Below are positions 11,461 through 52,160 of a stretch of 64,000 bases of DNA, piece after piece. Origin of the DNA: an uncultured Tateyamaria sp. (lineage in GTDB: Bacteria > Pseudomonadota > Alphaproteobacteria > Rhodobacterales > Rhodobacteraceae); NCBI RefSeq assembly GCF_947503465.1, contig NZ_CANNDN010000001.1, positions 434,001 through 498,000 on the forward strand, in the 5' to 3' direction. Numbering within the stretch: position 1 is the stretch's first letter; the number at the start of each line of letters is the position of its first letter. Under the pieces are notes generated by a model. The model had not been told where the DNA came from, searched no databases, and saw nothing but the letters and a program-made list of their open reading frames with translations. Position numbers and translations under genes: made by a program.

Positions 11461-11461
11461 G

Positions 11462-12630: not shown

Positions 12631-12663
12631 GTCGTCCTCCGTTTGGCGGGGGCGACAGGGGGG

Positions 12664-13365: not shown

Positions 13366-13381
13366 GGGCATTCCTCGTATG

Positions 13382-13456: not shown

Positions 13457-13572
13457 TGGCCCGCTTCTGGTGCGACGCGGCATGTCACTTTTGTGTGCCA
13501 TGGCATGCTGTCCGATGGCTGATTTCGAAGTCTTTTCTGGCATATGTTCTTGATACGTTCTAGTTTGGGATC

Positions 13573-14649
13573 ATGAAACCCGATCTCCAGACGCGTCAGC
13601 CCAAGGCCCGTGGCGCGGTGACCAATGTCGTAAGCCGGTATGATAGCGTCACGCGCCACAGTGATCCCGATGGCTGGGATATCGAAGAGGACCTGCCGAT
13701 CCTTCGGACGGATGTCAGCCTGGAACGCCCTCGCAGCATGATCAGTTACAACCGGTCTCCCGATCTGCCCTTTGATCGGTCGATCAATCCCTACCGCGGC
13801 TGTGAACACGGATGCGTATACTGCTTTGCGCGGCCCAGCCACGCCTATCTGGGTTTGTCGCCGGGGCTTGATTTCGAAACGCGGCTTGTGGCGCGACCAA
13901 CGGCGCCTGACGTTTTGCGGGCCGAGTTGATGCGCAAGAGTTACCGGGTGGCCCCCATGGCCATCGGCACGAACACCGATCCGTATCAGCCCATTGAACG
14001 CGATCATGGGATCATGCGCGCCTGTCTTGAGGTGCTTGAGGCCTGTAACCATCCGGTTGCCATCGTGACCAAGGGCACGTTGATTGAACGCGATATCGAC
14101 ATTCTTGCGCGCATGGCGCGGCGTGGGCTGGCGCGGGTGGGCATATCCGTGACCACATTGGATGCCGATCTGAGCCGCAGGATGGAACCCCGTGCGCCGA
14201 CGCCCAAGCGTCGGTTGACCATGATCCGCCGCTTGTCCGCGGCGGGGATACCTGTTCGTGTCATGGCGTCGCCCATGGTGCCGGCCCTGACCGATCCCGA
14301 GCTTGAGGCTATTCTGACCGCTGGCAAGGAGGCCGGGGCACGGTCGGCCAGTTGGATCATGCTGCGGCTTCCGCGCGAAGTGTCGCCCCTGTGGCAGGAA
14401 TGGCTGGCGGAACACGTGCCCGACAGGGCCAATCGCATCATGTCGCATCTGCGCGACATGCATGGCGGCCGCGATTATGATGCCCGGTGGGGGCACCGCA
14501 TGCGGGGGACGGGGGCCTATGCCGAACTGGTGCACCATCGGTTCAAGGTCGCGATCAAACGTCTGGGGTTGAAGGAAAAGGTGCCGCCGATGCGAACCGA
14601 CTTGTTCCATCCGCCGCAGGAGGACAGCGCGCAACTCACCCTCTTTTAG
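13573..14649 (+). CDS. PA0069 family radical SAM protein (SplB-like)
   Basis: A 358-residue radical SAM enzyme. The cluster-binding motif is CEHGCVYC (C77, C81, C84), a CX3CX2C, followed by FARPSHAYLGLSPG as in PA0069/SplB-like proteins. NPYRG precedes it. GTNTDPYQPIER and ITKGTLIERDIDILA-like segments are present, and the C-terminus (QEDSAQLTLF) is characteristic of the family. The substrate is unknown. The gene sits between the corrinoid-protein and homocysteine-methyltransferase genes and its stop overlaps the latter's stop by 4 bases in convergent orientation. Confidence 0.9.
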   Translation: MKPDLQTRQPKARGAVTNVVSRYDSVTRHSDPDGWDIEEDLPILRTDVSLERPRSMISYNRSPDLPFDRSINPYRGCEHGCVYCFARPSHAYLGLSPGLDFETRLVARPTAPDVLRAELMRKSYRVAPMAIGTNTDPYQPIERDHGIMRACLEVLEACNHPVAIVTKGTLIERDIDILARMARRGLARVGISVTTLDADLSRRMEPRAPTPKRRLTMIRRLSAAGIPVRVMASPMVPALTDPELEAILTAGKEAGARSASWIMLRLPREVSPLWQEWLAEHVPDRANRIMSHLRDMHGGRDYDARWGHRMRGTGAYAELVHHRFKVAIKRLGLKEKVPPMRTDLFHPPQEDSAQLTLF

Positions 14650-15671
14650 GCGGCGGCAGCGCGGCGGCCACGCCGTTTGCGCGCCGGGCGGGTGCTTGCG
14701 TCGTCCCCTGTGCCGTCGCTGGCAGAGGAAAATGCGCCCAAGGCCGCAACGATGGCATCCAGTGTCGGAGCGGGACGCTTTGGGCGCGTGTCCAGTGCAT
14801 CCCGCATCTTTTCCAGGTGCGCAGGGGTGGTACCACAGCAGCCGCCGATGATGCTGGCGCCGCAATCACGCGCAAGGACTGCATAATCCGCCATCAATTC
14901 GGGGGTGCCGTCGTAATGGATGTGGCCATCATGGTATTTGGGTATGCCAGCGTTGCCCTTGGCGATGATCGGCACCTCGGTCCCTGTCGCGGCAAAGCCC
15001 AGGACGGTGCGCAACAGGTCAGACGCGCCCGTACCGCAATTTGCTCCAAACGCGACAGGCGGGAAATCGAGGCTCGCGACCAGCGCAGCCATATCCGTGC
15101 TGGTCACTCCCATCATCGTCCGTCCAGCGGTGTCAAAGCTCATTGTGCCGACCCAAGGCAGTTCGGCCAGCGCAAACCCTTCGGCTGCTGCGGAGAATTC
15201 TTCGGGCGCCGATATCGTTTCGAGCCAGCCGATATCCGCGCCGCCCGCTTTCAGCCCGGCGGCGGTTTCGTGAAACATCTCGACCGCGTCCGCGTGCGTC
15301 AGGCTGCCGACGGGTTCCATGATCTCGCCCGTGGGGCCGACCGACCCGGCAACAAGCACCTTGCGCCCGGCCGCATCCGCCACGTCGCGCCCCAGTTCGG
15401 CGGCCCTCTTGCTCAACTCAAAGGCGCGGTGGCCAGCGTCGTGCAATTTCAGACGCGATGCGTTTGCGCCAAAGGAGTTGGTCAGAAACACGTCACTGCC
15501 CGCGTCGACCGCCCCCTGATACAACGCGCGGACCTTGGCAGGTTCCTGTTCGTTCCACAGTTCCGGCGCATCGCCAGACATCAATCCCATGGCAAACAGA
15601 TTGGTGCCTGTGGCACCGTCGGCCAACAGAACGCCGTTTTCGGCCAGCAGGGTGGTGATGGGATCAGACAT
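14646..15671 (-). CDS. Homocysteine S-methyltransferase domain protein (homocysteine module of split methionine synthase / BHMT-like)
   Basis: A 341-residue Zn-dependent homocysteine methyltransferase barrel. The Zn thiolates are C212 (FGANCGTGAS) and C278/C279 (IIGGCCGTTPAHL). N-terminal features are LLADGATGTNLFAMGL and FLTNSFGANASRL. It lacks the pterin- and B12-binding domains of MetH, whose length would exceed 1000 residues. It could use betaine or a methyl-corrinoid protein as donor; the neighbouring corrinoid protein favours the latter. The start was set at the ATG preceded by AAAGGTG. The C-terminal tail is Arg-rich (RPARKRRGRRAAAA). It lies 36 bases downstream of the MprF-like gene. 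Confidence 0.9.
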   Translation of the reverse strand: MSDPITTLLAENGVLLADGATGTNLFAMGLMSGDAPELWNEQEPAKVRALYQGAVDAGSDVFLTNSFGANASRLKLHDAGHRAFELSKRAAELGRDVADAAGRKVLVAGSVGPTGEIMEPVGSLTHADAVEMFHETAAGLKAGGADIGWLETISAPEEFSAAAEGFALAELPWVGTMSFDTAGRTMMGVTSTDMAALVASLDFPPVAFGANCGTGASDLLRTVLGFAATGTEVPIIAKGNAGIPKYHDGHIHYDGTPELMADYAVLARDCGASIIGGCCGTTPAHLEKMRDALDTRPKRPAPTLDAIVAALGAFSSASDGTGDDASTRPARKRRGRRAAAA

Positions 15672-39528: not shown

Positions 39529-39921
39529 TTACAGTGCACCCATCGCAATTCGGGTTGCTGCAATGGCGCCCAGGTTGATCGACAGCGCCACGATGGCCAC
39601 CACAAGTTCAGAGCCGAAGAAGATCCATTTCAACCGGGTCGTGCCGTCGGCGATCAGGGATGTGATCCGACCCAGCGCGCCGCCGGCCCAGATGAATCCC
39701 AGCATGGCATAGGCCACAGGGCTTGCAAGCCACAGCGCGCCCGCGCCAGCCACCACAAACAGCGCGCCCGAGGCTGCGCGCACTTCGGACCGGCCCATGG
39801 TCGACCCTCCGTCGCGCAGGTCGACCGTTTGCATCGTGTAACGCGGTGCCAACCATCCCAACGCACCGAAAAAGATAGTGAGCACGGCGATGCCGATATT
39901 GATAAATGTGATCCAGTCCAT
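39529..39921 (-). CDS. DUF4345 family membrane protein, tandem copy 1
   Basis: A 130-residue protein with four predicted helices. GALGWLAPRYTMQTVDLRDG, STMGRSEVRAASGALFVVAG and AYAMLGFIWAGGALGRITSL are conserved with the neighbouring copy at 39974-40324. The family has no known function. It likely arose by local duplication. It ends at a TAA 5' of the tmRNA promoter region and belongs to a leftward gene row. Confidence 0.85.
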   Translation of the reverse strand: MDWITFINIGIAVLTIFFGALGWLAPRYTMQTVDLRDGGSTMGRSEVRAASGALFVVAGAGALWLASPVAYAMLGFIWAGGALGRITSLIADGTTRLKWIFFGSELVVAIVALSINLGAIAATRIAMGAL

Positions 39922-39973
39922 GAGCGCCTCGTTTCAATGGTTTGAAAGAGGAACCCGGAAGGGGCCATTTTGT

Positions 39974-40324
39974 TCATATGTTCGCTGCGATGAACCAGAC
40001 GGCCAGGGCTGCCTCTATGCCACCGAACAGGATCACCTTGCGGCGAGGTGGGTTGTCCAGCGCTAGCGACAGGCAGCGGCCAAGCGCAGCACCTGCAAAG
40101 GCAAAGCCGATCATCGCATAGGCGACCGGCGCGTCGATCCAGATGGCGGCCAGGCCTGCCACGACAAAAAGCCCACCGACAGAAGCGCGCATTTCGCTCA
40201 GCCCCATGGTGCTGCTGGTCGGCTCCAGATCAAGCGCTGCCGCCGTATAGCGCGGTGCCAGAAATCCAAACAGGCCGAAGGCGATGGTCAACGCGGCGGC
40301 CAGGATGTTGAGGCTGTCAATCAT
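39974..40324 (-). CDS. DUF4345 family membrane protein, tandem copy 2
   Basis: A 116-residue paralogue of the preceding gene: FGLFGFLAPRYTAAALDLEP, STMGLSEMRASVGGLFVVAG and AYAMIGFAFAGAALGRCLSL align throughout. Four predicted helices and no catalytic motif. The ATG was chosen to match the paralogue; it overlaps the end of the upstream acyltransferase gene by 8 bases, so the two are probably cotranscribed. Confidence 0.85.
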   Translation of the reverse strand: MIDSLNILAAALTIAFGLFGFLAPRYTAAALDLEPTSSTMGLSEMRASVGGLFVVAGLAAIWIDAPVAYAMIGFAFAGAALGRCLSLALDNPPRRKVILFGGIEAALAVWFIAANI

Positions 40325-41054
40325 GCGCCGCAGGTAGGGCAGGATTATCTGTCCGGCAAGCGCCAAATGTCTCGGCGATCGGGGTGTTCAGCCGATCTTC
40401 CAGCCTCTGGTTGAAGGTCGCAAGGTCCATGTTCGGGTCCAGATCATCCACCCGCCGCAGATCGACCGAGATATGCCGCCGCCCGCGTTTGATGCCGATG
40501 AACGTCCAGAAGTAATCATAGCGCGCGGGCTGGAACTTGCCCAAGCCATCCAGTCGTAGAACCAACACGGGCCGCTCTGGATTTGTTTGCAGGATATCAC
40601 GCGCGCCGGACAGATGCGGCGCTATCACTTCGGCCGGTTGCTGGCGCGTGTGCCCGGCGGGGAACAGCAGAATACTCTCGTCGCGATCAAGCGCTGCGAG
40701 GATCAGCGACATCGCTTTCTTCTTTTGGGCCTCGCGCCGTTCGGGGCTCCAGGTCCTGGGGGAACTGACGGGAATGGCGCGGGCCACGAACAATGGAAAC
40801 CACTGCATCCAGTTGTTGTATTCGTTGTAATGCACCACAGGGCGAATGCGTTGCGTGGTGTACAGGATCGCAGCAATCAATGGACCGTCAAAGCGGCTGA
40901 CATGGGTTGCGAGGATCAACGCGCCTTGCAGGTCCTGCAAAAGATGCTTGTTCGAACAACTGACATTGTAGAACAGCCCGAAATAGGTGCGCACGATCGC
41001 AAAGAAGAAATGGCGCAGCCATTTGCCGATGGTGCCATCAATAAATCGGAACAT
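40317..41054 (-). CDS. PlsC-like 1-acyl-glycerol-phosphate acyltransferase family protein
   Basis: A 245-residue acyltransferase fold. The catalytic HX4D motif lies in ILATHVSRFDGPLIAA (H51, D56), and FPAGHTRQQPAE matches motif III. YNEYNNWMQWFPLFVARAIP is motif II-like. An N-terminal hydrophobic segment (FFFAIVRTYFGLFYN) suggests peripheral inner-membrane location. It could acylate lysophosphatidic acid or an ornithine-lipid precursor; the substrate is uncertain. It follows the small membrane protein gene by 73 bases. Confidence 0.82.
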   Translation of the reverse strand: MFRFIDGTIGKWLRHFFFAIVRTYFGLFYNVSCSNKHLLQDLQGALILATHVSRFDGPLIAAILYTTQRIRPVVHYNEYNNWMQWFPLFVARAIPVSSPRTWSPERREAQKKKAMSLILAALDRDESILLFPAGHTRQQPAEVIAPHLSGARDILQTNPERPVLVLRLDGLGKFQPARYDYFWTFIGIKRGRRHISVDLRRVDDLDPNMDLATFNQRLEDRLNTPIAETFGACRTDNPALPAAHD

Positions 41055-41127: not shown

Positions 41128-41781
41128 TCAGAGAGCGGTCCAGAGACCAACACCGCCCACAAGGATCAGGCTCAGTGCCCAGCCAAGTTCAAGATCAAAC
41201 CAGCCGCGTTTGAGAAAGTTGAGACCAAGCCAGCGGTGTACCGCATAAGCCACGGCGCCGCCGGATCCCATCATGGCGACGGTATGCAGAACGGCCACGC
41301 CCAGTGCCAGGGCCGTTGTCGCCATCAGTGCGGACGCGGCGCGGTGCCCTGCGTCCAGTTCTTCGATGGCGCAAAGGCCCAGGTAAATCGGCACGAGCAT
41401 GAGCGCAGCACCGTGGGCCAGCGCAACGAGAAAGGACCAAAGGGTCAGTTTGTGCGGCGGAATGCGCGCCAAGAACCGCGGGTGCTTGCGTGTTATCGCC
41501 AGGTACAGTCCCATCCCGATGACCAGAAGGCCCGCGCCGATGCGGATTTCGTTCTCGAAATCAATCAGCAACGTCATCATGGAGAAGGGCAGAAGAATAC
41601 CCAGCATCGCCGCGAAATGGCCCAGCGACAGCGCCCCAAGCGCGGGCCACAGCGCGCTGCGCCGCCGTTCGAACAACGCGGAGGACACGGCCAGTGGCCA
41701 GCCCATGCCGGGGTTCAGGCCGTGATACAGGCCAGAGAGGATCACGGCGAGCCACAGGCCCGCCGCAGTTGTCAACTCCAT
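41128..41781 (-). CDS. Membrane protein linked to the SBP56 gene, possible metal transporter
   Basis: A 217-residue protein with about six predicted helices. LSGLYHGLNPGMGWPLAVSS places a His in the first helix, as in HupE/NiCoT-like carriers, and VALAHGAALMLVP and VAVLHTVAMMGSGG add two more membrane His. It begins 3 bases after the SBP56 stop, so it is cotranscribed with the methanethiol oxidase homologue. The family is not firmly recognised. Copper or another metal is a guess from the His placement and context. Confidence 0.65.
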   Translation of the reverse strand: MELTTAAGLWLAVILSGLYHGLNPGMGWPLAVSSALFERRRSALWPALGALSLGHFAAMLGILLPFSMMTLLIDFENEIRIGAGLLVIGMGLYLAITRKHPRFLARIPPHKLTLWSFLVALAHGAALMLVPIYLGLCAIEELDAGHRAASALMATTALALGVAVLHTVAMMGSGGAVAYAVHRWLGLNFLKRGWFDLELGWALSLILVGGVGLWTAL

Positions 41782-41784
41782 GCT

Positions 41785-43188
41785 CTAACCCACTGAAGGA
41801 TAGCAGAAACTGTCCGTCGAACAGTCGCCGCCCTCAAGCCGGATCTGGTGGCTGCGGTAGCCTTCGGGGAATGTGGTCCAGAACTTTTCGTCCAGCGTCA
41901 GTCCGCCGTTCTCGCCCACATGCGCCATCACCATCGCCGCCCCACGCTCACCCGGATAGAACTGGTCGTCCCATGTGGAATAAAGCGAGTTGGTCCAGTA
42001 GACGCGCTTGCCGTCGCGGCTGATCTCGACCATCTGCGGGCCATAGCCAAAGTCCTGGCCGTTGGGGTGCTTGTGCTTGGCGACGATGCCCCCAATCTCG
42101 ACCTTGCCGGCCAGAACCGGGTTCATCGGGTCGGACACATCGTATTGGTGCATCTCGCCCAGTCCCCAACACGCGACATACAGGTATTTGTCATCCAGGC
42201 TCAGGTCGATGTCCGTCACCAGCGGCGGCACGGCACCGAACCCTTTCAGCAAGTCGGGCAAGTCGTCCGCGTCCGCAGGCACCGGATCAATGGTGATTGT
42301 CTTCTTGGCCTGCCATTCACCATCCTCGTCCCGCCACCAGGTAAAGATCGCGCCTTGCAGGTTGGTGGTGTCCACGACCACACCGCAAAACCCGTATTCC
42401 TTGACCGGATCGTGGGCCGGTCGGATCTCCAGCGCCATCTGGTGGTTCTCGCCCAGGTCGATGGATTTGGTCACCTTGCGCCCGCGCAGATCCCAGAAGT
42501 GGATCGTATGGCCGTATTTGTTGCTCAGCAGATCTTCGGGCACCACACCGTTTTCAAACTGTGGCGGCAGGCCCCATTCGGAACTGACCATGTAGTCGCG
42601 CGGCAGGTTCCACCAGAAATCATAGTGCTTGTCCTGAATGCCCCGGTCCATCTCGTACCGGCCCAGGATGTCGAAGCTCTCGCAATCCATGATGAAGATG
42701 CCAGGAGGGCCGTCGGTCCCATCCTCGCCGCCGCCGCCAAGGGTCGAGACATAGATACCCTCAGGACCGCAATGGATCGTGTGCGGGCGCGAATAGCCCG
42801 TCTTGGCAAACAGTTCTTCGGGTTCGATGATCTTGTGGATCTTGGCGTCCAGAGGGTCCTTGACGTCGATGATATAGATGCGCGACGACCGGATGCCGGG
42901 GATGATCAGGTAACGGCGCTCCAGAAAGGCGTGGCCGGTCAGGGGCGACAGGGCCGACGAACAGGCGTTCCACCCAAAATGGTGAAATTCGTCGCCCAGG
43001 TTCGGCACATAAAGTTCGTGAACAATCTGGCTGTAGGTGTCGCTGGTCGGATCGACATCCACAACTGCAAGGCCGTCCGGTCTGGTCCCATCGGGGCTAA
43101 GCATCAGCGTAAAGGCCAGCTTTTCTACCGGTGCCTGCATGGCATCGTTGGGCGAAGGATAAAATGTGGGATCTGGTCTTAAATTCAT
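41785..43188 (-). CDS. mtoX: SBP56-family methanethiol oxidase homologue
   Basis: A 467-residue beta-propeller protein of the selenium-binding-protein/methanethiol-oxidase family, clearly similar in layout to human SELENBP1: LAVVDVDPTSDTYSQIVHEL, DEFHHFGWNACSSALSPLTG, RSSRIYIIDVKDPLDAKIHK and WTNSLYSTWDDQFYPG. The family oxidises methanethiol to formaldehyde, sulfide and peroxide and is copper-dependent. His69/His70 and Cys76 are retained; the second Cys of the human CSSC is absent (CSSA). There is no signal peptide, unlike periplasmic relatives. AGGGAGG precedes the chosen ATG. It lies between the GntR and membrane-protein genes in one leftward unit, so a methanethiol role is likely here, though not proven. 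Confidence 0.9.
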   Translation of the reverse strand: MNLRPDPTFYPSPNDAMQAPVEKLAFTLMLSPDGTRPDGLAVVDVDPTSDTYSQIVHELYVPNLGDEFHHFGWNACSSALSPLTGHAFLERRYLIIPGIRSSRIYIIDVKDPLDAKIHKIIEPEELFAKTGYSRPHTIHCGPEGIYVSTLGGGGEDGTDGPPGIFIMDCESFDILGRYEMDRGIQDKHYDFWWNLPRDYMVSSEWGLPPQFENGVVPEDLLSNKYGHTIHFWDLRGRKVTKSIDLGENHQMALEIRPAHDPVKEYGFCGVVVDTTNLQGAIFTWWRDEDGEWQAKKTITIDPVPADADDLPDLLKGFGAVPPLVTDIDLSLDDKYLYVACWGLGEMHQYDVSDPMNPVLAGKVEIGGIVAKHKHPNGQDFGYGPQMVEISRDGKRVYWTNSLYSTWDDQFYPGERGAAMVMAHVGENGGLTLDEKFWTTFPEGYRSHQIRLEGGDCSTDSFCYPSVG

Positions 43189-43261
43189 GGCTTCCTCCCT
43201 GAAAGCGTGTGTCTGTCTGTGCCCGGCCCCTTCAATGTATTTGCGACTTGTGACAAAGGGA

Positions 43262-44017
43262 TCAGGCGGTCTTGTGCTCCTTTTCGGCGGCCCGTTTTGC
43301 ACGGGCGGTGACCACAGAATGGGCCAGTTCCCGTGTGTAGGCTTCTAGTTTCACAAGTGTGGCGTCGACCTTGTGCGCGTCCTGCGCATCGATCGCGTCG
43401 GCAATATCGGTGTGCAAGGCCACGATCTCTTCGCGCGACCGCGCCGTGAACGTGATCATGTTCATCAGGGGCTGCATGGCCTCGACCGCACCGGCAAGCT
43501 GATAACTCAGCACCTTGTTGCCCGCGCCATCCACCAAGGCCCGGTGAAAGGTGACGTCAGAAGCGCAGAACGCTTCATCCGTCAATCCAGGCTGACCCTG
43601 GCGATGAATTTCGGCGCGCATCGTGGCCAGCTGATCCGGTGTGCGGCGCTGTGCCGACAGGGGCGCGCAGGCACGCTCCAACGCATAGCGCGCTTCACAA
43701 GCGACATCGAAACTGACCGCGTTCATGGACAAAAGCAGGGTCGACGTGGTGACCTGCTGGGCATAGGCATCCTCAAAGCGCAGACGGTTCACAAACGCGC
43801 CGCCCGACGCGCCGCGCTGGGTGCGGATCAGCGATTGCGCCGCCAGCCGCTTCAGGGCCTCGCGCACCGTGGGACGGGACACGTCAAAATGATCCGCAAG
43901 CTCCGCCTCGCTTGGCAGGCGCTGATCGACAATCAAATCGCCCGCAATGATCGCATCCCGGATCGCCTTGGCAATCTGGGCGGACAAATCCACGGTGCTG
44001 TCAGGATCAATTTTCAT
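43262..44017 (-). CDS. FadR-type GntR transcriptional regulator (candidate regulator of the DMSP divergon)
   Basis: A 251-residue repressor. The winged helix is residues about 10-75 (RLPSEAELADHFDVSRPTVR) and the FCD effector domain about 90-235, with its metal-ligand His and Asp residues in VTFHRALVDGAGN and ALHTDIADAID. FadR-group regulators bind GTxxxAC operators; two such sites lie directly between it and DUF2182. It is the first gene of the mtoX unit and divergent from the dmdA unit, so it probably controls both. A GntR regulator beside dmdA in Ruegeria has been described, as I recall; orthology is not shown here. Confidence 0.9.
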   Translation of the reverse strand: MKIDPDSTVDLSAQIAKAIRDAIIAGDLIVDQRLPSEAELADHFDVSRPTVREALKRLAAQSLIRTQRGASGGAFVNRLRFEDAYAQQVTTSTLLLSMNAVSFDVACEARYALERACAPLSAQRRTPDQLATMRAEIHRQGQPGLTDEAFCASDVTFHRALVDGAGNKVLSYQLAGAVEAMQPLMNMITFTARSREEIVALHTDIADAIDAQDAHKVDATLVKLEAYTRELAHSVVTARAKRAAEKEHKTA

Positions 44018-44044
44018 TTGTCTTACATTTTAATGTCTGACATT
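44018..44044. promoter_or_regulatory. Paired GntR-type operator sites
   Basis: Two GTNNNAC cores lie 15 bases apart: TTGTCTTACA (44018-44027) and AATGTCTGACATT (44032-44044, a perfect 13-base palindrome). They sit between the GntR start codon and the DUF2182 leader. The first site touches the regulator's own start codon, which suggests autoregulation. A regulator bound here could control both divergent units. Confidence 0.65.
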
Positions 44045-44086
44045 TAATCTGGCAAGCATTGAGTCGTATGCGTTCAGGGAGGACAC

Positions 44087-44875
44087 ATGCCGCATCTTGT
44101 TCGTTCAACCCTGTGGCTTGGGTTCTTCGGCGCGATCCTCGCGGCGTGGTGGGTGATGTATTCCATGTCGCTGTCCATGGACGTGGACCTGTTCGGACGG
44201 CCCGGAGAGATGGGCGCGCGCATGGCCGCGATGGACCCGCGCATGCCCATGTACATGCCGATGGCGCATTTCGGCCCGCTGTTCGCGATGTGGGCGATCA
44301 TGATGGCGGCGATGATGCTGCCGACTCTGGTGCCGACACTGCGCAGCTACGAAGACCTGATGGTCAGCGCGGACGGCACGCGGGCAGGGTGGCTGGGGGT
44401 CCTTCTGGGCTACTTCGTTGTCTGGGTCGCTTTTGCCGCGCTGATCACGGGCGTGCAGCTTGCCTTGCTTTTCGGCGGCATCATCGACATGCTGGGCATA
44501 TCCAAGACCACCACATTTGCGGGCCTGCTGCTGCTGGCCGTTGGTCTGTTCCAATTCACCCGAGCAAAGGAACTCTGCCATGGCGTCTGCCATAGCCCGA
44601 TGATGTACTTCCTTGGCCACTGGCGCACCGGCTTTCAGGGCGGGCTGCGCATGGGCCTCGGCCTTGGCGCGTTTTGCGTGGGCTGCTGCTGGGGCTTCAT
44701 GGCGCTTGGCTTTGTCGGCGGCGTGATGAGCCTGCTGTGGATGGGCCTCGCGACGCTGTTTATGGTGATCGAAAAATTGCCCCAGATCGGGCATGTTGTC
44801 ACGAAACCCATGGGGGGTCTGTTGACCCTTGCAGGGCTGACCGTACTGGTCTGGCCCTTTGTAACCGGAGGATAA
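44087..44875 (+). CDS. DUF2182 membrane protein with Met-rich loop, candidate copper handler
   Basis: A 262-residue polytopic protein, COG5486, described as a predicted metal-binding membrane protein. The N-terminal helix is followed by a Met-rich stretch, residues about 42-59, with Met at 42, 46, 49, 53, 55, 57 and 59. Conserved blocks include FAMWAIMMAAMMLPT, ELCHGVCHSPMMYFLGHW and FCVGCCWGFMALG. Met-rich loops of this type bind Cu(I). GGGAGGAC precedes the ATG. It is the first gene of the dmdA operon, with 1 base before DUF1326. Function is inferred. Confidence 0.85.
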   Translation: MPHLVRSTLWLGFFGAILAAWWVMYSMSLSMDVDLFGRPGEMGARMAAMDPRMPMYMPMAHFGPLFAMWAIMMAAMMLPTLVPTLRSYEDLMVSADGTRAGWLGVLLGYFVVWVAFAALITGVQLALLFGGIIDMLGISKTTTFAGLLLLAVGLFQFTRAKELCHGVCHSPMMYFLGHWRTGFQGGLRMGLGLGAFCVGCCWGFMALGFVGGVMSLLWMGLATLFMVIEKLPQIGHVVTKPMGGLLTLAGLTVLVWPFVTGG

Positions 44876-44876
44876 G

Positions 44877-45584
44877 ATGGCCGTCAAAAAACGCGCGCAA
44901 GCGGACAAGCTGCCGATCAGCCAACGTATCGACAGCCGGATGCCGAACCCCGGCAGGCGCCAGATGTCGCCCACCGAATGGGCCATCAAGGGCGAACTGT
45001 TCCTCAACTGCTCGTGCGAGCTGTTTTGCCCCTGCGTGGTGTCGCTGGGCGCGCATCCGCCGACCGAGGGGCACTGCCACGCCTGGATGGCGATCGCCAT
45101 CGACGAGGGGCATTTCGAGGGCGAGGACCTGTCAGGCCTGAACGTGGGCCTCATGGTCGACATCCCGGGCCGCATGGGCGAAGGGGGCTGGCGCGTTGCG
45201 GCCTATGTGGACGAACGGGCAAGCGGCAAGGCCTATAACGGCATTCTGCAAGTCTTCTCGGGGGCTGCGGGCGGCACCACGGGCCTTTTCACCATGCTGG
45301 TCAGCGACATTGTGGGCGCCGAACGCGAGAAGGTCGAGATCGTCCGCGAAGGCACGAAGCGCGGCCTCTATATCGGGCGCAAGATCCAGGGCGAGATCGA
45401 GATGATCACCGGCAAGTCCGAAGATCACCCGGTCATGATCACCAATTCCAAATACTGGATGGGCCCCGACATCATCGCGGCGCGCGGGCTGAAGTCCAAG
45501 GTACGCGATTATGGCCGCATCTGGGACTTCGGCGGCAAGTCCGCCGAAATCTGCCCGATCGACTGGAAAGGCCCCAAACCGTGA
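44877..45584 (+). CDS. DUF1326 protein with Cys-rich motif
   Basis: A 235-residue DUF1326 protein. Near the N-terminus LNCSCELFCPCVVSLGAHPP carries C45, C47, C51 and C53, followed by GHCHAW (C67, flanking His). These residues could bind copper or an iron-sulfur centre. The rest of the protein (SGLNVGLMVDIPGRMGEGG and TGLFTMLVSDIVGAEREKV) is a beta-rich fold with no known enzyme activity. DUF1326 genes usually pair with DUF2182 genes, as here. It starts 1 base after DUF2182 and overlaps the DinB gene by 4 bases. Confidence 0.85.
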   Translation: MAVKKRAQADKLPISQRIDSRMPNPGRRQMSPTEWAIKGELFLNCSCELFCPCVVSLGAHPPTEGHCHAWMAIAIDEGHFEGEDLSGLNVGLMVDIPGRMGEGGWRVAAYVDERASGKAYNGILQVFSGAAGGTTGLFTMLVSDIVGAEREKVEIVREGTKRGLYIGRKIQGEIEMITGKSEDHPVMITNSKYWMGPDIIAARGLKSKVRDYGRIWDFGGKSAEICPIDWKGPKP

Positions 45585-46090
45585 TCGAGGCAGGCTATGT
45601 ACGGACCATGGCCCGTTACAACGCCTGGCAGAACCGCCAGTTGACGGAGATGCTGACCGGCGTGCCGGACGACGAGTTGCGCAAGGATCGTGGCGCGTTC
45701 TTCGGCTCGATCATGGCGACGCTAAACCATATCCTTTGGGGCGACACGATGTGGATGAGCCGGTTCAACCCGGACATACCCGCACCTGCCGTGCCGCCAG
45801 AGCAGCACAAGGACTTCACACCCACCTTCGCGGTCTGGAGCGCCGAACGCTTTCGTATGGACGGCACGATCCGGCTGTGGGGTGACACCCTCAACACCGT
45901 CGACCTCAAGGGCGACCTGTCGTGGTATTCCGGCACGCTCAAGCAAGACTTCCAGATGCCGCTTGAGACATGTGTGACCCACCTTTTCACCCACCAGACC
46001 CACCACAGGGGTCAGGTGCACGCCATGATGACCGCGGCGGGCCTGTCCGCACCGGTTACCGATATCGTATTCATGCCAAAGGACGAGTGA
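45581..46090 (+). CDS. DinB family protein
   Basis: A 169-residue four-helix DinB-fold protein. Its metal-binding His residues lie in ATLNHILWGDTMW and THQTHHRGQVHAMM (typical HxxxH region near residue 145). DinB relatives are thiol-dependent metalloenzymes, such as bacillithiol or mycothiol transferases, but the specific role here is unknown. Translation starts at GTG overlapping the DUF1326 stop as GTGA, and its stop overlaps the dmdA ATG, so it is embedded in the operon. Confidence 0.9.
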   Translation: MIEAGYVRTMARYNAWQNRQLTEMLTGVPDDELRKDRGAFFGSIMATLNHILWGDTMWMSRFNPDIPAPAVPPEQHKDFTPTFAVWSAERFRMDGTIRLWGDTLNTVDLKGDLSWYSGTLKQDFQMPLETCVTHLFTHQTHHRGQVHAMMTAAGLSAPVTDIVFMPKDE

Positions 46091-47193
46091 TGGCCGTTAT
46101 CTCTCCATCGCGCCGCCTGCGCCGCACACCCTTTTCCGACGGGGTCGAGGCCGCAGGGGTCAAAGCCTATACCATCTACAACCGGATGCTGCTGCCCACC
46201 GTGTTCGACAGTGTCGAGGCGGACTATCGCCATCTCAAGGACCATGTGCAGGTCTGGGACGTGTCCGTCGAACGGCAGGTCGAATTGCGCGGTCCCGATG
46301 CGGGCCGCCTGATGCAGATGCTGACACCTCGCGATCTGCGCCGCATGCTGCCCGGTCAGTGCTATTATGTGCCCATCGTGGACGAGACGGGGGGCATGCT
46401 GAACGACCCCGTGGCCGTGAAGCTGAGTGAAGATCGCTGGTGGATATCCATTGCCGACAGCGATTTGCTGCTGTGGGTCAAGGGGATCGCAAACGGGTAC
46501 CGGCTGGATGTCCTGGTGGACGAACCTGACGTATCACCGCTTGCGGTGCAGGGCCCCAAGGCTGACCAGCTGATGGAACGGGTCTTTGGTGAACGGGTCC
46601 GCGACATCCGGTTTTTCCGCTTCGACATGTTCCAGTTCGAAGGATGCGACCTGGCGATCGCGCGCTCGGGCTACTCCAAGCAGGGCGGGTTCGAGATTTA
46701 CGTGCCCGACAGCGCGCAGGGCATGCCCCTGTGGAACGCGCTGTTTGCGGCAGGTGAAGACCTGCAGGTCCGCGCCGGTTGTCCCAACGGCATCGAACGG
46801 GTCGAGGCCGGGTTGCTGTCCTATGGCAACGACATGACCGATGACAACACGCCCCATGAATGTGGGCTGGGACGGTTCTGCGACACGCAGACGGCGATTG
46901 GCTGTATCGGGCGCGACGCGCTGTTGCGGGTGTCCAAGGAAGGGCCCGTGCAACAGATCAGGCCCATCGCCATTCATGGTGATGCCGTGCCCACCTGTGA
47001 CCGGCCCTGGCCGCTGTATGCCGGGGGCAAGCGCGTGGGGCAAGTCACGTCCGCCGCGTGGTCGCCGGACTTCAAGACCAACGTGTCTATTGGTATGGTG
47101 CGCATGACCCATTGGGATGCGGGCACCGCGTTGGAAGTCGAGACGCTGGACGGCATGCGCCGCGCAACGGTGCAAGAGGCGTTCTGGTTGTAA
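46090..47193 (+). CDS. dmdA: DMSP demethylase DmdA
   Basis: A 367-residue GcvT-like methyltransferase. DmdA transfers a methyl from DMSP to tetrahydrofolate, giving methylmercaptopropionate and 5-methyl-THF. The N-terminus (RRLRRTPFSDGVEAAGVKAY) and VQVWDVSVERQVELRGPDAG, GQCYYVPIVDETGGMLNDPV, LSYGNDMTDDNTPHECGLGR and CIGRDALL follow Roseobacter DmdA proteins rather than glycine cleavage T-proteins. The ATG shares a base with the DinB stop. It is followed by acuI, the same pairing as in Ruegeria pomeroyi. The CoA-pathway genes dmdBCD are outside the window. Confidence 0.9.
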   Translation: MAVISPSRRLRRTPFSDGVEAAGVKAYTIYNRMLLPTVFDSVEADYRHLKDHVQVWDVSVERQVELRGPDAGRLMQMLTPRDLRRMLPGQCYYVPIVDETGGMLNDPVAVKLSEDRWWISIADSDLLLWVKGIANGYRLDVLVDEPDVSPLAVQGPKADQLMERVFGERVRDIRFFRFDMFQFEGCDLAIARSGYSKQGGFEIYVPDSAQGMPLWNALFAAGEDLQVRAGCPNGIERVEAGLLSYGNDMTDDNTPHECGLGRFCDTQTAIGCIGRDALLRVSKEGPVQQIRPIAIHGDAVPTCDRPWPLYAGGKRVGQVTSAAWSPDFKTNVSIGMVRMTHWDAGTALEVETLDGMRRATVQEAFWL

Positions 47194-47201
47194 CCGCCGG
47201 A

Positions 47202-47246
47202 CCGGGGCGCTGCCCCGGACCCCGGCATATTTTTCGAACAATGAAG
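47202..47246 (+). repeat. Hairpin-plus-tail element after dmdA, copy 3
   Basis: CCGGGGC (47202-47208) pairs with GCCCCGG (47212-47218) with a 3-base loop. The tail CCCGGCATATTTTTCGAACA then ATGAAGG resembles the tails at 18980-19005 and 11431-11460. It lies between dmdA and acuI, so it may cause partial termination or protect the dmdA mRNA 3' end. Confidence 0.65.
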
Positions 47247-47276
47247 GGGTGGTCCCTTCGATGAATGGAGAGCGAT

Positions 47277-48263
47277 ATGTTCAATGCACTTGTGGTCAAC
47301 AAGGATGAGGACAGCGGCAAGACCTCTGCTGCGGTGCAAGAGCTGTCGCTGGATGACCTGCCCGAAGCCGACGTGACGGTTGCAATCGAGTATTCGACGG
47401 TGAACTACAAGGACGGTCTGTGCATCGGGCCGGGTGGTGGTTTGGTCCGCAAATACCCGCATGTGCCCGGCATCGACTTTGCCGGGACGGTCGAGGCGTC
47501 GGATGATGACCGCTACACGCCGGGCGACAAGGTTGTGCTGACCGGCTGGCGTGTCGGCGAGGCGCATTGGGGCGGCTATGCGCAGAAAGCACGGGTCAAG
47601 GCCGATTGGCTGGTACCGCTGCCGGAGGGTCTGGACACCCGCCAGGCCATGGCCGTGGGCACGGCCGGTTTCACCGCGATGCTGGCGGTGATGGCGCTGG
47701 AAGATCACGGGATCAAGTCCGGCCCGGTGCTGGTCACCGGTGCCGCGGGCGGTGTGGGCTCGGTGGCCACCGCCATTCTGGCCAACCTTGGTCACAGCGT
47801 TGCCGGTGTGACGGGGCGCCCGGAAACGGCCGATTACCTGACATCCCTGGGCGCCAGCCAGATCGTGGCCCGCGAAGAGATCAACGAGACCACCAAGCGC
47901 CCGCTTGAGGGCGAAACCTGGGGCGGATGTGTCGACGCCGTGGGCGGCGCGATGCTGGCCCGCGTGCTGGGGCAGATGGAATACGGTGCCTCGGTGGCTG
48001 CGGTCGGCCTGGCCGGGGGCGCGGGCCTGCCCGCCACCGTCATTCCGTTCCTGCTGCGCGGCGTGAACCTTCTGGGCATCGACAGTGTCATGCAGCCCTA
48101 TGACAACCGCGTCCGCGCCTGGCAGCGCATCGCCAAGGACCTGCCCATGGACAAGCTCGAGGCCATGGTCCAGCCCGCGACCCTGTCCGATCTGCCGCAC
48201 TTGGGCGCAGACATCCTCAAGGGGCAGGTCAAGGGCCGCGTCGTGGTCGACGTGAACGCCTGA
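47277..48263 (+). CDS. acuI: Acryloyl-CoA reductase AcuI
   Basis: A 328-residue MDR-family NADPH-dependent reductase that converts acryloyl-CoA to propionyl-CoA and relieves acrylate toxicity from DMSP metabolism. YSTVNYKDGLCIGPGGGLVR, PHVPGIDFAGTVEASDDDRY, LTGWRVGEAHWGGYAQKARV and LVTGAAGGVGSVATAILANL are typical of AcuI/YhdH. The glycine-rich loop binds NADPH. Start at the ATG after GGAG. It lies 83 bases after dmdA, behind the hairpin element. Confidence 0.95.
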   Translation: MFNALVVNKDEDSGKTSAAVQELSLDDLPEADVTVAIEYSTVNYKDGLCIGPGGGLVRKYPHVPGIDFAGTVEASDDDRYTPGDKVVLTGWRVGEAHWGGYAQKARVKADWLVPLPEGLDTRQAMAVGTAGFTAMLAVMALEDHGIKSGPVLVTGAAGGVGSVATAILANLGHSVAGVTGRPETADYLTSLGASQIVAREEINETTKRPLEGETWGGCVDAVGGAMLARVLGQMEYGASVAAVGLAGGAGLPATVIPFLLRGVNLLGIDSVMQPYDNRVRAWQRIAKDLPMDKLEAMVQPATLSDLPHLGADILKGQVKGRVVVDVNA

Positions 48264-48302: not shown

Positions 48303-48719
48303 ATGACCGCCTATGACGACACCAACATCTTCGCCCAGATCCTGCGGGGCGAAATCCCGTGTTTCAAAGTCTATGAAGACGATGACACCTTGTGCTTCAT
48401 GGACATCATGCCCCGTACGGATGGGCATTGCCTGGTCATCCCCAAGACGCCCTGCCGCAATGTCCTCGATGCATCGGACGCGCAACTTGCGGCGGTGATG
48501 TCGACGGTCAGGAAAGTGGCAAATGCGGCCAAGGCGGCGTTTGACGCAGACGGCATCACCTTGCAGCAGTTCAACGAGACGGCCGGCGGACAAGAGGTGT
48601 TTCACCTGCATTTCCACATACACCCGAGGCATGAGGGCGTGTCGATGCGCCCGCCGGGCAAAATGGGCGACACGGATGTGATCAAGGGCTACGCCGAACG
48701 GATCAGCGCGGCGCTTTAG
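48303..48719 (+). CDS. HIT family nucleotide hydrolase
   Basis: A 138-residue HIT-fold protein. The catalytic triad motif is HLHFHIHPRHEG (HxHxHxx), with the opening NIFAQILRGEIPCFKVYEDD and HCLVIPKTPCRNV. Members hydrolyse adenosine 5'-monophosphoramidate, AppppA or similar. It lies 39 bases after acuI and may be read from the same transcript. A role in DMSP metabolism is not evident; it could be a housekeeping enzyme. Confidence 0.92.
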   Translation: MTAYDDTNIFAQILRGEIPCFKVYEDDDTLCFMDIMPRTDGHCLVIPKTPCRNVLDASDAQLAAVMSTVRKVANAAKAAFDADGITLQQFNETAGGQEVFHLHFHIHPRHEGVSMRPPGKMGDTDVIKGYAERISAAL

Positions 48720-49117
48720 GGTACGCGTTTCAAATCCGCCGGTTGGCCGATCCGTGGGTGCGCGCTTGGTCCCCATGCCACCGCGTCCGCGCGCGTATCG
48801 CACAAGAAGGGCAGCCTGGTTTTGGGCAAGGAGTGGTGAAATCCAGCCAGCGCGCAGGGACGATGTGACGGTTTTGAACGGCTCCCGCGCCGGATGGACC
48901 CGACCGGATACCACCCATGACGCGTGGAGATCGGTCCGAATCTTTGAATAATGAGACGGTTTCTTGCGCGGCGGGTGCGTCGAAAAGGCCGGTTCAGACC
49001 GCTGTTTCTGAAATTCCACAGGCAAATTTCATATCGGACACAGAAACGGCGGTTCATGGCACAAAGCGACCCCAAAAACCGGATTTTACCCTTCGTTAAT
49101 CACCTAAGCCGTGTTTT
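48720..49117. other. Gene-free stretch before the BCCT transporter
   Basis: No credible protein gene is seen on either strand. The segment around 48937-48960 (GGTCCGAATCTTTGAATAAT then GAGACGG) weakly resembles the tail of the hairpin-plus-tail element. The AT-richer part at 49000-49117 should hold the promoter of the transporter gene. Confidence 0.4.
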
Positions 49118-49143
49118 CCTGCTGTCATAAAAATGACAACAGG
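49118..49143 (+). promoter_or_regulatory. Inverted repeat before the BCCT transporter start
   Basis: CCTGCTGTCAT (49118-49128) pairs with ATGACAACAGG (49133-49143), 11 bp with one G-U wobble, loop AAAA. The right arm runs into the AGGAAGG ribosome binding site, 9 bases before the ATG. It is either an operator or a leader hairpin that could gate translation of the transporter. Confidence 0.55.
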
Positions 49144-49152
49144 AAGGTAACC

Positions 49153-50844
49153 ATGTCAATTCAACCTCCATTGACGGAGCTGCCGATCAAGACCGCGGAC
49201 TCGGGGTTTTATCGGGGCTTTAGCGTCAACGTTGCGGTGATCAGCAAGATCATCATCAGCATGCTTGTCGTCTGGTGCATCGTTTGGCCGACCGAGGCGG
49301 GCACCGTCTTGGGCGACTGGAACAGCGTCATTCTCGCCAACTTCGCCGCTTGGTACATCTGGGTCGTCACGTTCTTCGTGATCGTCTGCCTGGGCCTCGC
49401 CATCTGGCCAACTGCGGGTCGCCTGAACCTGGGCCAGCCCGGGGAAAAACCCGAATTCAGCAACTTTTCCTGGTTCTCGATGATGTTCGGTGCCGGGATC
49501 GGGGTCGGCATGCTGACCTGGGCCGTGGCCGAACCGGTGGCGCATTTCAAGAACAACCCCTCCGTCATTCAGGGCGCAACCACCACGCTTAGCGCAGACA
49601 ACGTGCGTGAGGCCTATGTCTGGTCCTTCCTGCACTGGGGCCTGGGGGCCTGGGCCTGCTATGCTGTTGCAGGTCTTGCTCTGGCATTCTTCAGCTATCG
49701 TCGTGGTCTCCCGCTGACGATCCGGTCGTCACTGACGCCACTGTTCGGCAAAACGCTGTCCGGATTTCTGGGCAACCTGATCGACATCGTCGCAGTGGTG
49801 GCAACCATTCTGGGGGTTGCGCAAACGCTTGGCTTTGGCGTGGAACAGTTCGTGGCCGGTCTGACCCGGATCGGAATCGGAGGCCTTGTCCTGGATGACG
49901 GTTCCGCCACGACGCTCGGCATTGTCGTGGCGCTTCTGGTCATCATGGGCGCGTCGACGCTCTCGGCCCTGTCGGGCGTGGGCAAAGGCATCAAATGGCT
50001 GTCGAACATCAACATGGTGCTGTCGATTGTCCTGCTGGGCTTCTTCATCATCTTCGGGGCGACCTTCTTTGGTGCGGCGGCTTTCTTTGTGGGCATCTGG
50101 GACTACCTGGTCGCGCTTCCATGGCTCAGCTTCAATGTCTACGCCTCTGACGGCGTTGACGGGTCCGAAGCGTTCCTGCTGGCACAGTGGCAGGGCTGGT
50201 GGCCCGTGTTCTACTGGGCCTGGTGGATCGCCTTTGCACCTTTCGTGGGGCTGTTCCTGGCGCGTATATCGCGGGGCCGAAGCATCCGCGAGTTCGTGCT
50301 GGGCGCCATGATCGTGCCGTCGCTGATGTGCTTTGTCTGGTTCTCTTGGGCCGGTGGCACCGCCATCGATCTGGAACTGAACGGCGACGCAAACGGTGTC
50401 ATTCTGGACGCGGCCAATGGTGACAAGATTTTTGCCATGACCGAATTCATGCTGGCACCCATCGCACAGGTCCTCGCCTGGGGCATGGCGGTTCTGATCG
50501 TTGTGCTGCTGATGACCTTCCTTGTGACATCGGCTGACTCCGCTGTGCTGATCGTGAACACGATCAACGCCGCCGGTGACGAAGGTCCCAAGGCGCGCCC
50601 GCACATCCTGTTCTGGGGCTCGGCCCTTGGGCTTGTCGTGGCCGGTCTGCTGATTTCCGGCGGGACGGGGGCCATTCAGACCGCCATGGTGATCGGGGCA
50701 TTGCCGTTCTCGATCGTGATGGCGCTGATGTGCATCGCGCTGATCAAGGCGATCTACAACGATGGACGCCGCGAAGCGGCTGGCGTGCCCGCCGTGCACT
50801 CGGAAATTCCGGGGGCCACCGGCAACGGCCTGCCTGCCGAGTAA
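49153..50844 (+). CDS. BCCT family transporter, probable DMSP/betaine uptake
   Basis: A 563-residue twelve-helix betaine-carnitine-choline-type transporter. The GIGVGMLTWAVAEPVAHF motif gives the sodium and substrate site, and VFYWAWWIAFAPFVGLFLAR with ISRGRSIREF is the Trp-box of the quaternary-ammonium site. BCCT carriers import glycine betaine, choline, carnitine or DMSP. Its place behind dmdA-acuI suggests DMSP, but betaine is equally possible from sequence. Start at the ATG after AGGAAGG. A strong terminator follows. Confidence 0.92.
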   Translation: MSIQPPLTELPIKTADSGFYRGFSVNVAVISKIIISMLVVWCIVWPTEAGTVLGDWNSVILANFAAWYIWVVTFFVIVCLGLAIWPTAGRLNLGQPGEKPEFSNFSWFSMMFGAGIGVGMLTWAVAEPVAHFKNNPSVIQGATTTLSADNVREAYVWSFLHWGLGAWACYAVAGLALAFFSYRRGLPLTIRSSLTPLFGKTLSGFLGNLIDIVAVVATILGVAQTLGFGVEQFVAGLTRIGIGGLVLDDGSATTLGIVVALLVIMGASTLSALSGVGKGIKWLSNINMVLSIVLLGFFIIFGATFFGAAAFFVGIWDYLVALPWLSFNVYASDGVDGSEAFLLAQWQGWWPVFYWAWWIAFAPFVGLFLARISRGRSIREFVLGAMIVPSLMCFVWFSWAGGTAIDLELNGDANGVILDAANGDKIFAMTEFMLAPIAQVLAWGMAVLIVVLLMTFLVTSADSAVLIVNTINAAGDEGPKARPHILFWGSALGLVVAGLLISGGTGAIQTAMVIGALPFSIVMALMCIALIKAIYNDGRREAAGVPAVHSEIPGATGNGLPAE

Positions 50845-50865
50845 ACCGATCTGCAAAACGCACTG

Positions 50866-50900
50866 AAAGGGCCCTGGCGCTTGCGCGCCGGGGCCTTTTT
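50866..50900 (+). terminator. Intrinsic terminator of the BCCT gene
   Basis: AAAGGGCCCTGGCGC pairs with GCGCCGGGGCCTTTTT around a TTGC loop. This is a GC-rich stem with a T-run, 21 bases after the transporter stop. It should end the transporter transcript before the cysteine desulfurase-like gene. Confidence 0.85.
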
Positions 50901-50933
50901 CTTAATCTGGGGGCAATTGCAGAAGGTGCGCCC

Positions 50934-52160
50934 ATGTCCCTCGATATTGAATTTGTCCGGGCCCAGTTCCCGGCCTTTGCCGAACCGTCCTTGCAGGGGC
51001 AGGCGTTTTTCGAAAACGCGGGCGGCAGCTATACCTGCAGGCAGGTCATTGACCGGTTGTTCCGCTTCTACACGCAGCGCAAGGTGCAGCCCTATGCCGA
51101 CTATGACGCCTCGCGCCTGGGCGGCGAGGAGATGGACGAGGCGCGCATGCGCATGGCAGCCCTCTTGGGTGTTGACACGGACGAGCTGAGCTTTGGCCCT
51201 TCGACGACCCAGAACACCTATGTTCTGGCACAGGCCTTTGCCCAGATGATGCAGCCCGGCGAAGCCATCGTCGTGACCAATCAGGACCACGAAGCCAACA
51301 CAGGCCCGTGGCGCCGTCTGGCGGAACGCGGATTCGAGATACGCGAATGGCAGGTGGACCCCGGCACCGGCCATCTGGATCCCGGAGCGCTGGAAGACAT
51401 CCTCGATGAAAAGGTGCGGCTTGTCTGCTTCCCGCACTGTTCAAACGTGATCGGAGAGATCAATCCGGTGACCGAGATCACGGCCCTGGCCCATGCTGCC
51501 GGTGCATTTGTCTGCGTGGATGGCGTCAGCTATGCGCCGCATGGCTTTCCTGATGTGGGAACGTTGGGACCGGATGTGTACCTGTTTTCCGCCTACAAGA
51601 CCTATGGCCCCCATCAGGGTCTGATGGTGATCCGCCGCACGCTTGGAGAGTTGTTGCCGAACCAGGGGCACTACTTCAACGCGGGCAGCCTGTACAAACG
51701 GTTCACGCCCGCCGGGCCCGACCATGCGCAGGTTGCCGCCTGTGCGGGTATGGCAGATTATGTAGACGCCCTTTACGATCACCATATGGGTGGGGGTGGC
51801 ACACAAGTGTCCCCGCGGGGACAAACCGTACACGACCTGATGCGCACCCGCGAAATCGAAGCGCTAACCCGCGTGATGGACGCCCTCAGGGACCGCAACG
51901 ACGTCCGCGTGATCGGCCCGACCGACGCCGCGGTGCGTGCGCCCACCGTGGCGCTTGATCTCGGCCGCGACCCGGTGGCCGTGGCGGCCGAGCTGGCGCG
52001 GCAAGGGATCATGGCAGGGGGCGGAGACTTCTATGCCGTGCGGGCCTTGCAGGCCATGGGGGTGGACCCGGACCGGGGTGTTCTGCGACTGAGTTTCACG
52101 CATTACACGAATGATGCCGAAATCGATCAACTCCTTTCCGCCCTCGACGCTGTTCTTTGA
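50934..52160 (+). CDS. Class V PLP enzyme, cysteine desulfurase-like
   Basis: A 408-residue class V aminotransferase-fold enzyme. The PLP lysine lies in VYLFSAYKTYGPHQGLMVI. QAFFENAGGSYTCRQVIDRL, LSFGPSTTQNTYVLAQAFA and ITALAHAAGAFVCVDGVSY are typical of the cysteine-desulfurase-like subgroup TIGR01976. No obvious sulfur-acceptor loop Cys matches IscS/SufS, so desulfurase activity is unproven. AGAAGG lies before the ATG. It is separated from the transporter by the terminator and may have its own promoter. Confidence 0.85.
   Translation: MSLDIEFVRAQFPAFAEPSLQGQAFFENAGGSYTCRQVIDRLFRFYTQRKVQPYADYDASRLGGEEMDEARMRMAALLGVDTDELSFGPSTTQNTYVLAQAFAQMMQPGEAIVVTNQDHEANTGPWRRLAERGFEIREWQVDPGTGHLDPGALEDILDEKVRLVCFPHCSNVIGEINPVTEITALAHAAGAFVCVDGVSYAPHGFPDVGTLGPDVYLFSAYKTYGPHQGLMVIRRTLGELLPNQGHYFNAGSLYKRFTPAGPDHAQVAACAGMADYVDALYDHHMGGGGTQVSPRGQTVHDLMRTREIEALTRVMDALRDRNDVRVIGPTDAAVRAPTVALDLGRDPVAVAAELARQGIMAGGGDFYAVRALQAMGVDPDRGVLRLSFTHYTNDAEIDQLLSALDAVL

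Follow-up and report, generated by a model that had tools for sequence, protein, structure and literature searches.

The comparison of gene neighborhoods reported here indicates that two genes encoding proteins of the DUF2182 and DUF1326 families are a long-kept part of the operon of dmdA, the dimethylsulfoniopropionate (DMSP) demethylase gene, in the roseobacter loci examined. DMSP is an abundant marine sulfur compound, and dmdA is the marker gene for its demethylation fate in the sea. The locus under study lies in a 64,000-nt window of an uncultured Tateyamaria sp. (GCF_947503465.1, contig NZ_CANNDN010000001.1, positions 434,001–498,000), and all coordinates below are positions in this window. 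Comparison of the predicted genes and sites shows that gntR, with operators of the TGTCWGACA type, faces a conserved DUF2182-DUF1326-(DinB)-(dmdA)-acuI operon, and that an SBP56-family gene and a gene for a membrane protein, called MEM here, form a portable pair standing behind gntR in some lineages. We interpret the whole as a DMSP/acrylate-responsive, GntR-controlled catabolic unit of two modules, an explanation that in its full form has, in our estimate, about an even chance of being correct.

The right arm of the unit, on the forward strand, begins with the DUF2182 gene (44087–44875; PF09948, 197.1 bits, cut-off 28.7), whose product has conserved Met/Cys residues, and continues with the gene for the Cys-rich DUF1326 protein (44877–45584; PF07040, 163.2 bits, cut-off 25), a DinB-family gene (45581–46090; PF05163, 84.9 bits, cut-off 23), dmdA (46090–47193; NF009133, 691.7 bits, cut-off 410) and acuI of the acryloyl-coenzyme A (CoA) reductase family (47265–48263). 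The acuI product passed the broader model TIGR02823 (443.8 bits, cut-off 297) and on the AcuI equivalog NF051456 reached 417 bits, 23 under the cut-off of 440. An earlier note on this DNA had described an eight-gene divergent order with stop/start overlaps at DUF1326-DinB and DinB-dmdA; every gene was found in its place, and the overlaps amount to 4 nt and 1 nt, respectively. The closest relatives of the window dmdA occur in five Tateyamaria genomes (identity 89–95%).

The surroundings of dmdA were compared at the best 80 loci of 587 relatives from GTDB genomes, mostly named roseobacters and weighted to close kin, and neighbors were counted by tblastn with the window proteins. At these loci, acuI was present in 79, GntR in 77, DUF2182 and DUF1326 in 73 each and DinB in 54, so the linkage to dmdA of the three genes singled out in the earlier note is conserved in other genomes. 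In 73 of the 80 roseobacter loci, dmdA-acuI is preceded by the DUF2182-DUF1326 pair. The seven pair-less loci comprise two cut by a contig end (L046 and L076; L denotes loci and G genomes), four without the pair (L024, L027, L030, and L035) and one with DinB only (L056).

The family was sampled by 150 genomes, with a single genome for each genus label. These contained 66 dmdA genes over the cut-off, in 62 genomes, and DUF1326 was located within 5 kb of 47 of the 66 genes. By genome, both genes were found in 52, dmdA only in 10, DUF1326 only in 25 and neither in 63 (Fisher test, 1e-11, uncorrected for kinship). Forty-four of the 91 DUF1326 genes of this sample stand away from dmdA, and the 22 stretches examined cover 24 of these 44. 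The order DUF2182-DUF1326-(DinB)-acuI is kept without dmdA in L152, L156, L159, L160, L162, and L166, and in L168 acuI faces GntR-DUF2182-DUF1326. L155 holds the pair and DinB with no acuI match, and the stretches of L154, L164, and L171 end near the pair. In L169, from the same family, the pair precedes a crotonyl-CoA carboxylase/reductase gene (TIGR01751, 544.8 bits, cut-off 378.55). One genome, G115, has the pair beside acuI (L156) and dmdA elsewhere (L174). DUF1326 at 23–40% identity was found in other surroundings at ten loci (L153, L157, L158, L161, L163, L165, L167, L170, L190, and L191). At L158 and L191 (G031), this second kind of DUF1326-DUF2182 pair lies beside a quinone-reductase-like gene and a gene whose product has weak similarity to glutathione-dependent formaldehyde-activating enzyme (23 bits, far below cut-off).

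In a class sample of 192 genomes, 20 had dmdA over the cut-off, and DUF1326 adjoins it in three, all from the same family as the window. Outside the family, DUF1326 at 50–61% identity was found in eight of 376 class genomes. In one of these (L219), GntR faces DUF2182-DUF1326-dmdA-CoA ligase-acuI; another (L192) has DUF2182-DUF1326-CoA ligase-SBP56 on a single strand, and L220–L223 have DUF2182-DUF1326-CoA ligase. L224 has DUF1326 with no DUF2182 match, and L225 has DUF2182 and DUF1326 with no other window gene. Relatives of the ligase adjoin dmdA in at least five loci (L015, L046, L068, L176, and L181). Judging from these predicted neighbors, the pair keeps company with genes for the activation and reduction of short acids. 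We considered whether the CoA ligase beside the pair is DmdB and rejected this: on the model for 3-(methylthio)propionyl-CoA ligase, the L192 ligase scored 332 bits, with a cut-off of 822; the same protein reached 877 bits on PRK08162, “acyl-CoA synthetase” (cut-off 677). The ligases of L219 and L223 match PDB entries 6ihk and 6ijb, presumably DmdB structures, at about 242–249 bits.

A tree was built from 67 DUF1326 proteins. All rows linked to dmdA, acuI or a ligase fall in one group of 55 (support 97/91, branch length 1.86), nine rows from other contexts form a second group (100/100), and three long-branch rows remain outside. The deep joins of this tree are unsure, its branches being long, and L155 was labeled acuI-linked despite the lack of an acuI match in its stretch. 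The dmdA label requires eight changes on the tree, which implies repeated gain, loss or relocation of dmdA around a pair that remained in place.

The left arm, on the reverse strand, consists of gntR (43262–44017), encoding a GntR/FCD regulator (PF07729 and PF00392 over cut-off), the SBP56 gene (41785–43188; PF05694, 575 bits), for which the ATG at 43188 was taken as the start rather than a longer GTG frame, and the gene for MEM (41128–41781), a 217-aa membrane protein of no named family, with no Pfam or NCBIfam match. The SBP56 protein matches PDB 2ece_A (559 bits) and appears to be of the cluster-1 (RlMTO-like) methanethiol oxidase type. Its Cys76, Cys140, and Cys456 lie in the motifs GWNACS, HTV(I)HC, and GGDCS(T), and all three were kept in 43 of 43 aligned window-type proteins (proteins with a match covering <60% were left out of the alignment). 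According to the paper on RlMTO of Ruegeria lacuscaerulensis and on RdMTO, both consume methanethiol with sulfane sulfur as the product, as observed for purified RlMTO, in which Cys456 is the binding site (PMC10936201). The cluster-1 proteins have three conserved cysteines in the same motifs as the window protein, and the residue numbers 76, 140, and 456 of RlMTO, compared by published numbering, are equal to those found here. That paper mentions neither dmdA nor any locus, and the unit with MEM and GntR is outside its scope.

The designation mtoX, given to this gene in the earlier note, is not strictly correct, as the protein reached 111.6 bits on the MtoX model NF052453, which has a cut-off of 650. 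MtoX of the mtoX-SCO1-mauG operon shares with it the SBP56 superfamily and the oxidation of methanethiol in DMSP degraders; MtoX, however, is described as periplasmic, has SCO1 and MauG as neighbors and an IclR regulator in R. pomeroyi (PMC5739008), whereas the window SBP56 is flanked by GntR and MEM, with SCO1/SenC and mauG absent beside it.

MEM appears to be a regular partner of this SBP56 type. It lies directly downstream in 32 of 32 examined loci of window-type SBP56 (31 at 77–91% identity and one at 57%) and next to none of the SBP56 genes of the 40–43% type (0/8 loci). Among the 192 class genomes, MEM was found in eight, always 28–164 bp from an SBP56 gene of 573–659 bits, and at none of the four SBP56 genes of 676–731 bits or the MtoX-like ones. 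Five histidines are invariant in 68 close relatives of MEM. Its predicted model (predicted local distance difference test score, 76.8) gave no reliable fold match, with HupE/UreJ, CcdA, and other LysE-clan proteins considered.

Of the 80 dmdA loci, only 10 carry SBP56-MEM; these belong to Tateyamaria and some Ruegeria, and the two genes always stand behind gntR, with gaps of 10–135 bp. SBP56 at the dmdA locus is thus an occasional add-on that, by gene order, arrives with MEM in the loci examined, and the single unit proposed in the earlier note proves to be a composite in which the right arm is general among these roseobacter loci and SBP56 is not. Such rarity is what would be expected if SBP56-MEM had been inserted beside gntR as a passenger functionally unrelated to DMSP, and in 29 of 32 window-type SBP56 loci the stretch examined contains neither a true dmdA nor acuI. 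We nevertheless hold this explanation to be improbable, as the association recurs: behind gntR in the window and L128, right after dmdA in L120/L178, near GntR and acuI in L141, and, in seven additional genomes, beside DmdA-like genes; furthermore, the genomes G113 and G066 have operators in front of unlinked SBP56 genes. Of 57 SBP56 genes in the family sample, 3 have a true dmdA within 10 kb (0.26 expected) and 7 a DmdA-like gene (261–384 bits; 0.20 expected); the expectations assume uniform placement without correction for kinship, and the 57 omit some partial SBP56 matches. Counted against any DmdA homolog, this is 10/57 versus 0.46 expected, which, together with the cysteine set of the assayed type, supports the link of SBP56 to DMSP that the earlier note had put forward.

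In L134 (G006; 8395–14687 of its stretch) and L229 (G142; 7251–13462), a DmdA-like gene (about 380 bits, under cut-off), a CoA ligase gene, SBP56 and MEM follow each other on a single strand, with an enoyl-CoA hydratase gene (PRK08139, 393.7 bits, cut-off 313) between the DmdA-like gene and the ligase in L134. A DmdA-like gene of about the same score, a CoA ligase gene and SBP56 also occur together in L227 (G028) and L145 (G031). These four clusters are possibly demethiolation clusters for a DMSP-like compound, and the clusters with DmdA-like genes are the clearest independent sign that the window-type SBP56 clade may handle methanethiol derived from demethiolation. Selenocysteine in SBP56 was considered and discarded: the TGA in L146, L148, L149, and L231 is the ordinary C-terminal stop, past which the alignment ran, and the TGA at the Trp73 codon in L008 (Ruegeria sp. 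EL01, 4646–6043 of its stretch) reflects a broken gene or a sequencing error. L143 and L227 (G004 and G028) have no stop in the aligned part of SBP56; the fragmentary matches of G013 and G032 were left out of this check.

The divergent gntR and DUF2182 starts are separated by 69 bp (44018–44086). The earlier note had placed a single control region with GntR operators here, and this is well borne out by the conservation of operator-type sites: TGTNNNACA sites occur in all 77 gntR-to-next-gene regions, 104 sites in total versus 2.7 per shuffle, with the consensus TGTCWGACA in A/T-rich surroundings. The regions represent the window and 76 of the 80 loci (L006, with >500 bp to the next gene, and L046, L068, and L076, with no GntR match, were left out). 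An operator of the TGTNNNACA type is typical of the FCD subfamily of GntR regulators. In the window, site 1, TGTCTTACA, occupies 44019–44027, its last base being 1 nt short of the gntR start codon, and an operator-like site 2, TGTCTGACA, matches the pattern at 44034–44042. A search of the entire 4.1-Mb genome for the 14-base pattern AWWTGTCWKACAWT gave two matches, both within 44016–44045. Across the family sample, the pattern gave 124 sites in 73 of 150 genomes versus 20 for a reversed control pattern (forward/reverse overlaps were merged by hand, and the control matches were left unmerged), and 57 of the 124 are near DUF1326, dmdA or SBP56. Two of the unlinked SBP56 genes, those of G113 and G066, have operators directly upstream. 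Sites near none of the three genes, found in G003, G012, G059, G062, G070, G081, and G149, among others, include several in genomes without dmdA over the cut-off; they are perhaps other members of the GntR regulon. The dmdA-less loci L152, L155, L156, L159, L160, L162, and L166 have neither TGTNNNACA upstream of DUF2182 nor a GntR match, which suggests that these copies are controlled otherwise.

A promoter-like sequence for gntR, TTGCCA-17-TAAAAT (44027–44055, reverse strand), matches the consensus, overlaps the operators and ends 9 nt before the gntR ATG; four such sites occur in 7.8 kb, with 2.0 expected. A Shine-Dalgarno-like 4-mer is missing before 66 of 77 gntR starts and present before 37 of 73 DUF2182, 68 of 73 DUF1326, 62 of 80 dmdA and 65 of 79 acuI starts. 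In 37 of 77 cases, an operator-like 9-mer (relaxed pattern) ends 0–3 nt before the gntR start codon, the starts of the relatives being guessed. On these grounds, and by analogy, gntR is likely leaderless and self-controlled, as was shown for acuR of R. sphaeroides (PMC3017554). In the passages available, the similarity to that system includes an operator on the gene's own promoter, no Shine-Dalgarno sequence, acuI downstream and acrylate as inducer; however, AcuR belongs to the TetR family, whereas the window regulator is of the GntR/FCD type, diverges from acuI and has a predicted start site (PMC3017554). Like the window, the published roseobacter dmdA-acuI operon has dmdA directly upstream of acuI in a DMSP/acrylate setting, and in R. 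pomeroyi it is induced by DMSP and acrylate, but not by methylmercaptopropionate (MMPA) (PMC3338564). This pattern makes acrylate or a CoA ester the likely signal for GntR, again by analogy. The paper treats the two genes, and its available passages name no GntR, DUF2182, DUF1326 or DinB (PMC3338564).

According to the mechanism we propose, GntR on tandem operators would control both directions and be released by DMSP-derived acrylate or a CoA ester. DmdA would start demethylation, and AcuI would remove acryloyl-CoA. Methanethiol freed by DmdB–D, encoded elsewhere, would be oxidized by a cytoplasmic SBP56 to sulfane sulfur and formaldehyde, and the His-rich MEM may supply metal or move a substrate or product. 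DUF2182 and DUF1326 would work together, their most likely task being the copper handling required as DMSP-derived thiols and acrylates form, and the pair would belong with the acuI/dmdA operon, not with SBP56. The weakest step is the one given to DinB, which may join a thiol to an electrophile.

The functions given for DUF2182, DUF1326, DinB, and MEM are all inferred. The Pfam family of DUF2182 is now named PpoB2, “Copper chaperone”; the PpoB2 protein of Marinomonas mediterranea hands copper to a tyrosinase (PMC2855505). Both proteins belong to the membrane family COG5486/PF09948; the Marinomonas one serves tyrosinase, whereas the window DUF2182 has DUF1326 as its partner and lies in an operon for DMSP. 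DinB proteins have a triad of conserved histidines. Across 30 proteins, His50 of the window DinB is invariant and His138 and His142 are kept in at least 90%. The earlier note had stated that the three families lack an assigned role in DMSP metabolism; no such role of the DUF2182-DUF1326 pair was found in the openly licensed literature searched, and DUF2182 now bears a family name.

For DUF1326, the alignment shows five conserved cysteines. A sequence search of solved structures gave no match, and the predicted model resembles the acetoacetate decarboxylase superfamily (4zbt, MppR, and ADC) at about 10–14% identity, from which the protein differs by this low identity and by its conserved cysteine motif. 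DUF1326 could therefore be an enzyme, of acetoacetate-decarboxylase or aldolase-dehydratase fold, whose substrate would be a small acid or a CoA ester from the acrylate/MMPA pathways; DUF2182 would then load it with metal or partner it at the membrane, and copper handling would not be the purpose in itself. We judge this unlikely, since the five cysteines suit metal or redox chemistry at least equally and a common predicted fold alone shows no function.

Another possibility is that the pair is the copper-loading system of SBP56, as SCO1/MauG are thought to be for MtoX. The copper link of the PpoB2 family, the promoter region used by both arms in the window and the single-strand arrangement of L192 would fit, but the distribution of the genes would not. 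In the family genomes with dmdA, the pair at dmdA does not predict window-type SBP56 (21/26 versus 4/11, P 0.25) or any SBP56 (P 0.55); the pair occurs without SBP56 in 22 of the 79 genomes searched (that of L079 was left out; counted by eye, some being incomplete metagenome-assembled genomes); and in the family sample there is no DUF1326 within 10 kb of 31 of 33 window-type SBP56 genes. On these counts, we find this idea distinctly improbable, and the co-occurrence data speak against the pair serving SBP56 alone.

Several observations weigh against the two-module explanation itself. DUF1326 adjoins none of the other 17 dmdA genes of the class sample, which are outside the family, and is missing within 5 kb of 19 of the 66 family dmdA genes, which suggests that DmdA does not need the pair. 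The failure of the pair to predict SBP56 means that, in most genomes, nothing ties it to the only copper enzyme known from this pathway, and the enzyme-like fold of the DUF1326 model would be ill-suited to a plain chaperone. Moreover, 67 of the 124 operator sites are near none of DUF1326, dmdA, and SBP56, and the many SBP56-MEM loci without true dmdA or acuI point in the same direction.

Beyond the unit, acuI is followed by a HIT-family gene, a BCCT transporter gene and a class-V aminotransferase look-alike (48303–52160), relatives of which occur near dmdA in 17, 29, and 51 of the 80 loci, respectively. On the other side, two DUF4345-like membrane genes lie at 39529–40366, and the one at 39974–40366 has relatives in 29 of 80 dmdA loci.

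As the earlier note had supposed, the whole unit appears to be undescribed: in the openly licensed literature, from which most subscription papers are excluded, we found no account of it, of the role of the pair in the dmdA operon or of the SBP56-MEM partnership. What stands out is a conserved pair with no assigned role in the dmdA operon, and MEM as the regular partner of one methanethiol oxidase clade. A bolder reading, which we offer tentatively and think somewhat doubtful, is that the DMSP-clade pair is an undescribed biochemical system required by roseobacters to catabolize DMSP/acrylate, in which a membrane Cu(I) chaperone is coupled to a cysteine-rich protein of decarboxylase fold, and that SBP56-MEM represents a novel type of methanethiol oxidase made of two proteins, in which MEM would replace SCO1/MauG and which in some lineages would close a demethiolation cluster of DmdA-like, enoyl-CoA hydratase, CoA ligase, SBP56, and MEM genes.

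The predicted operator offers a way into the GntR regulon, and the SBP56-MEM pairing opens the removal of methanethiol by roseobacters without MtoX to direct testing and provides a marker for this process. Should the DUF2182-DUF1326 pair have a part in the pathway, inferring demethylation from dmdA alone would overlook a requirement, possibly for copper.

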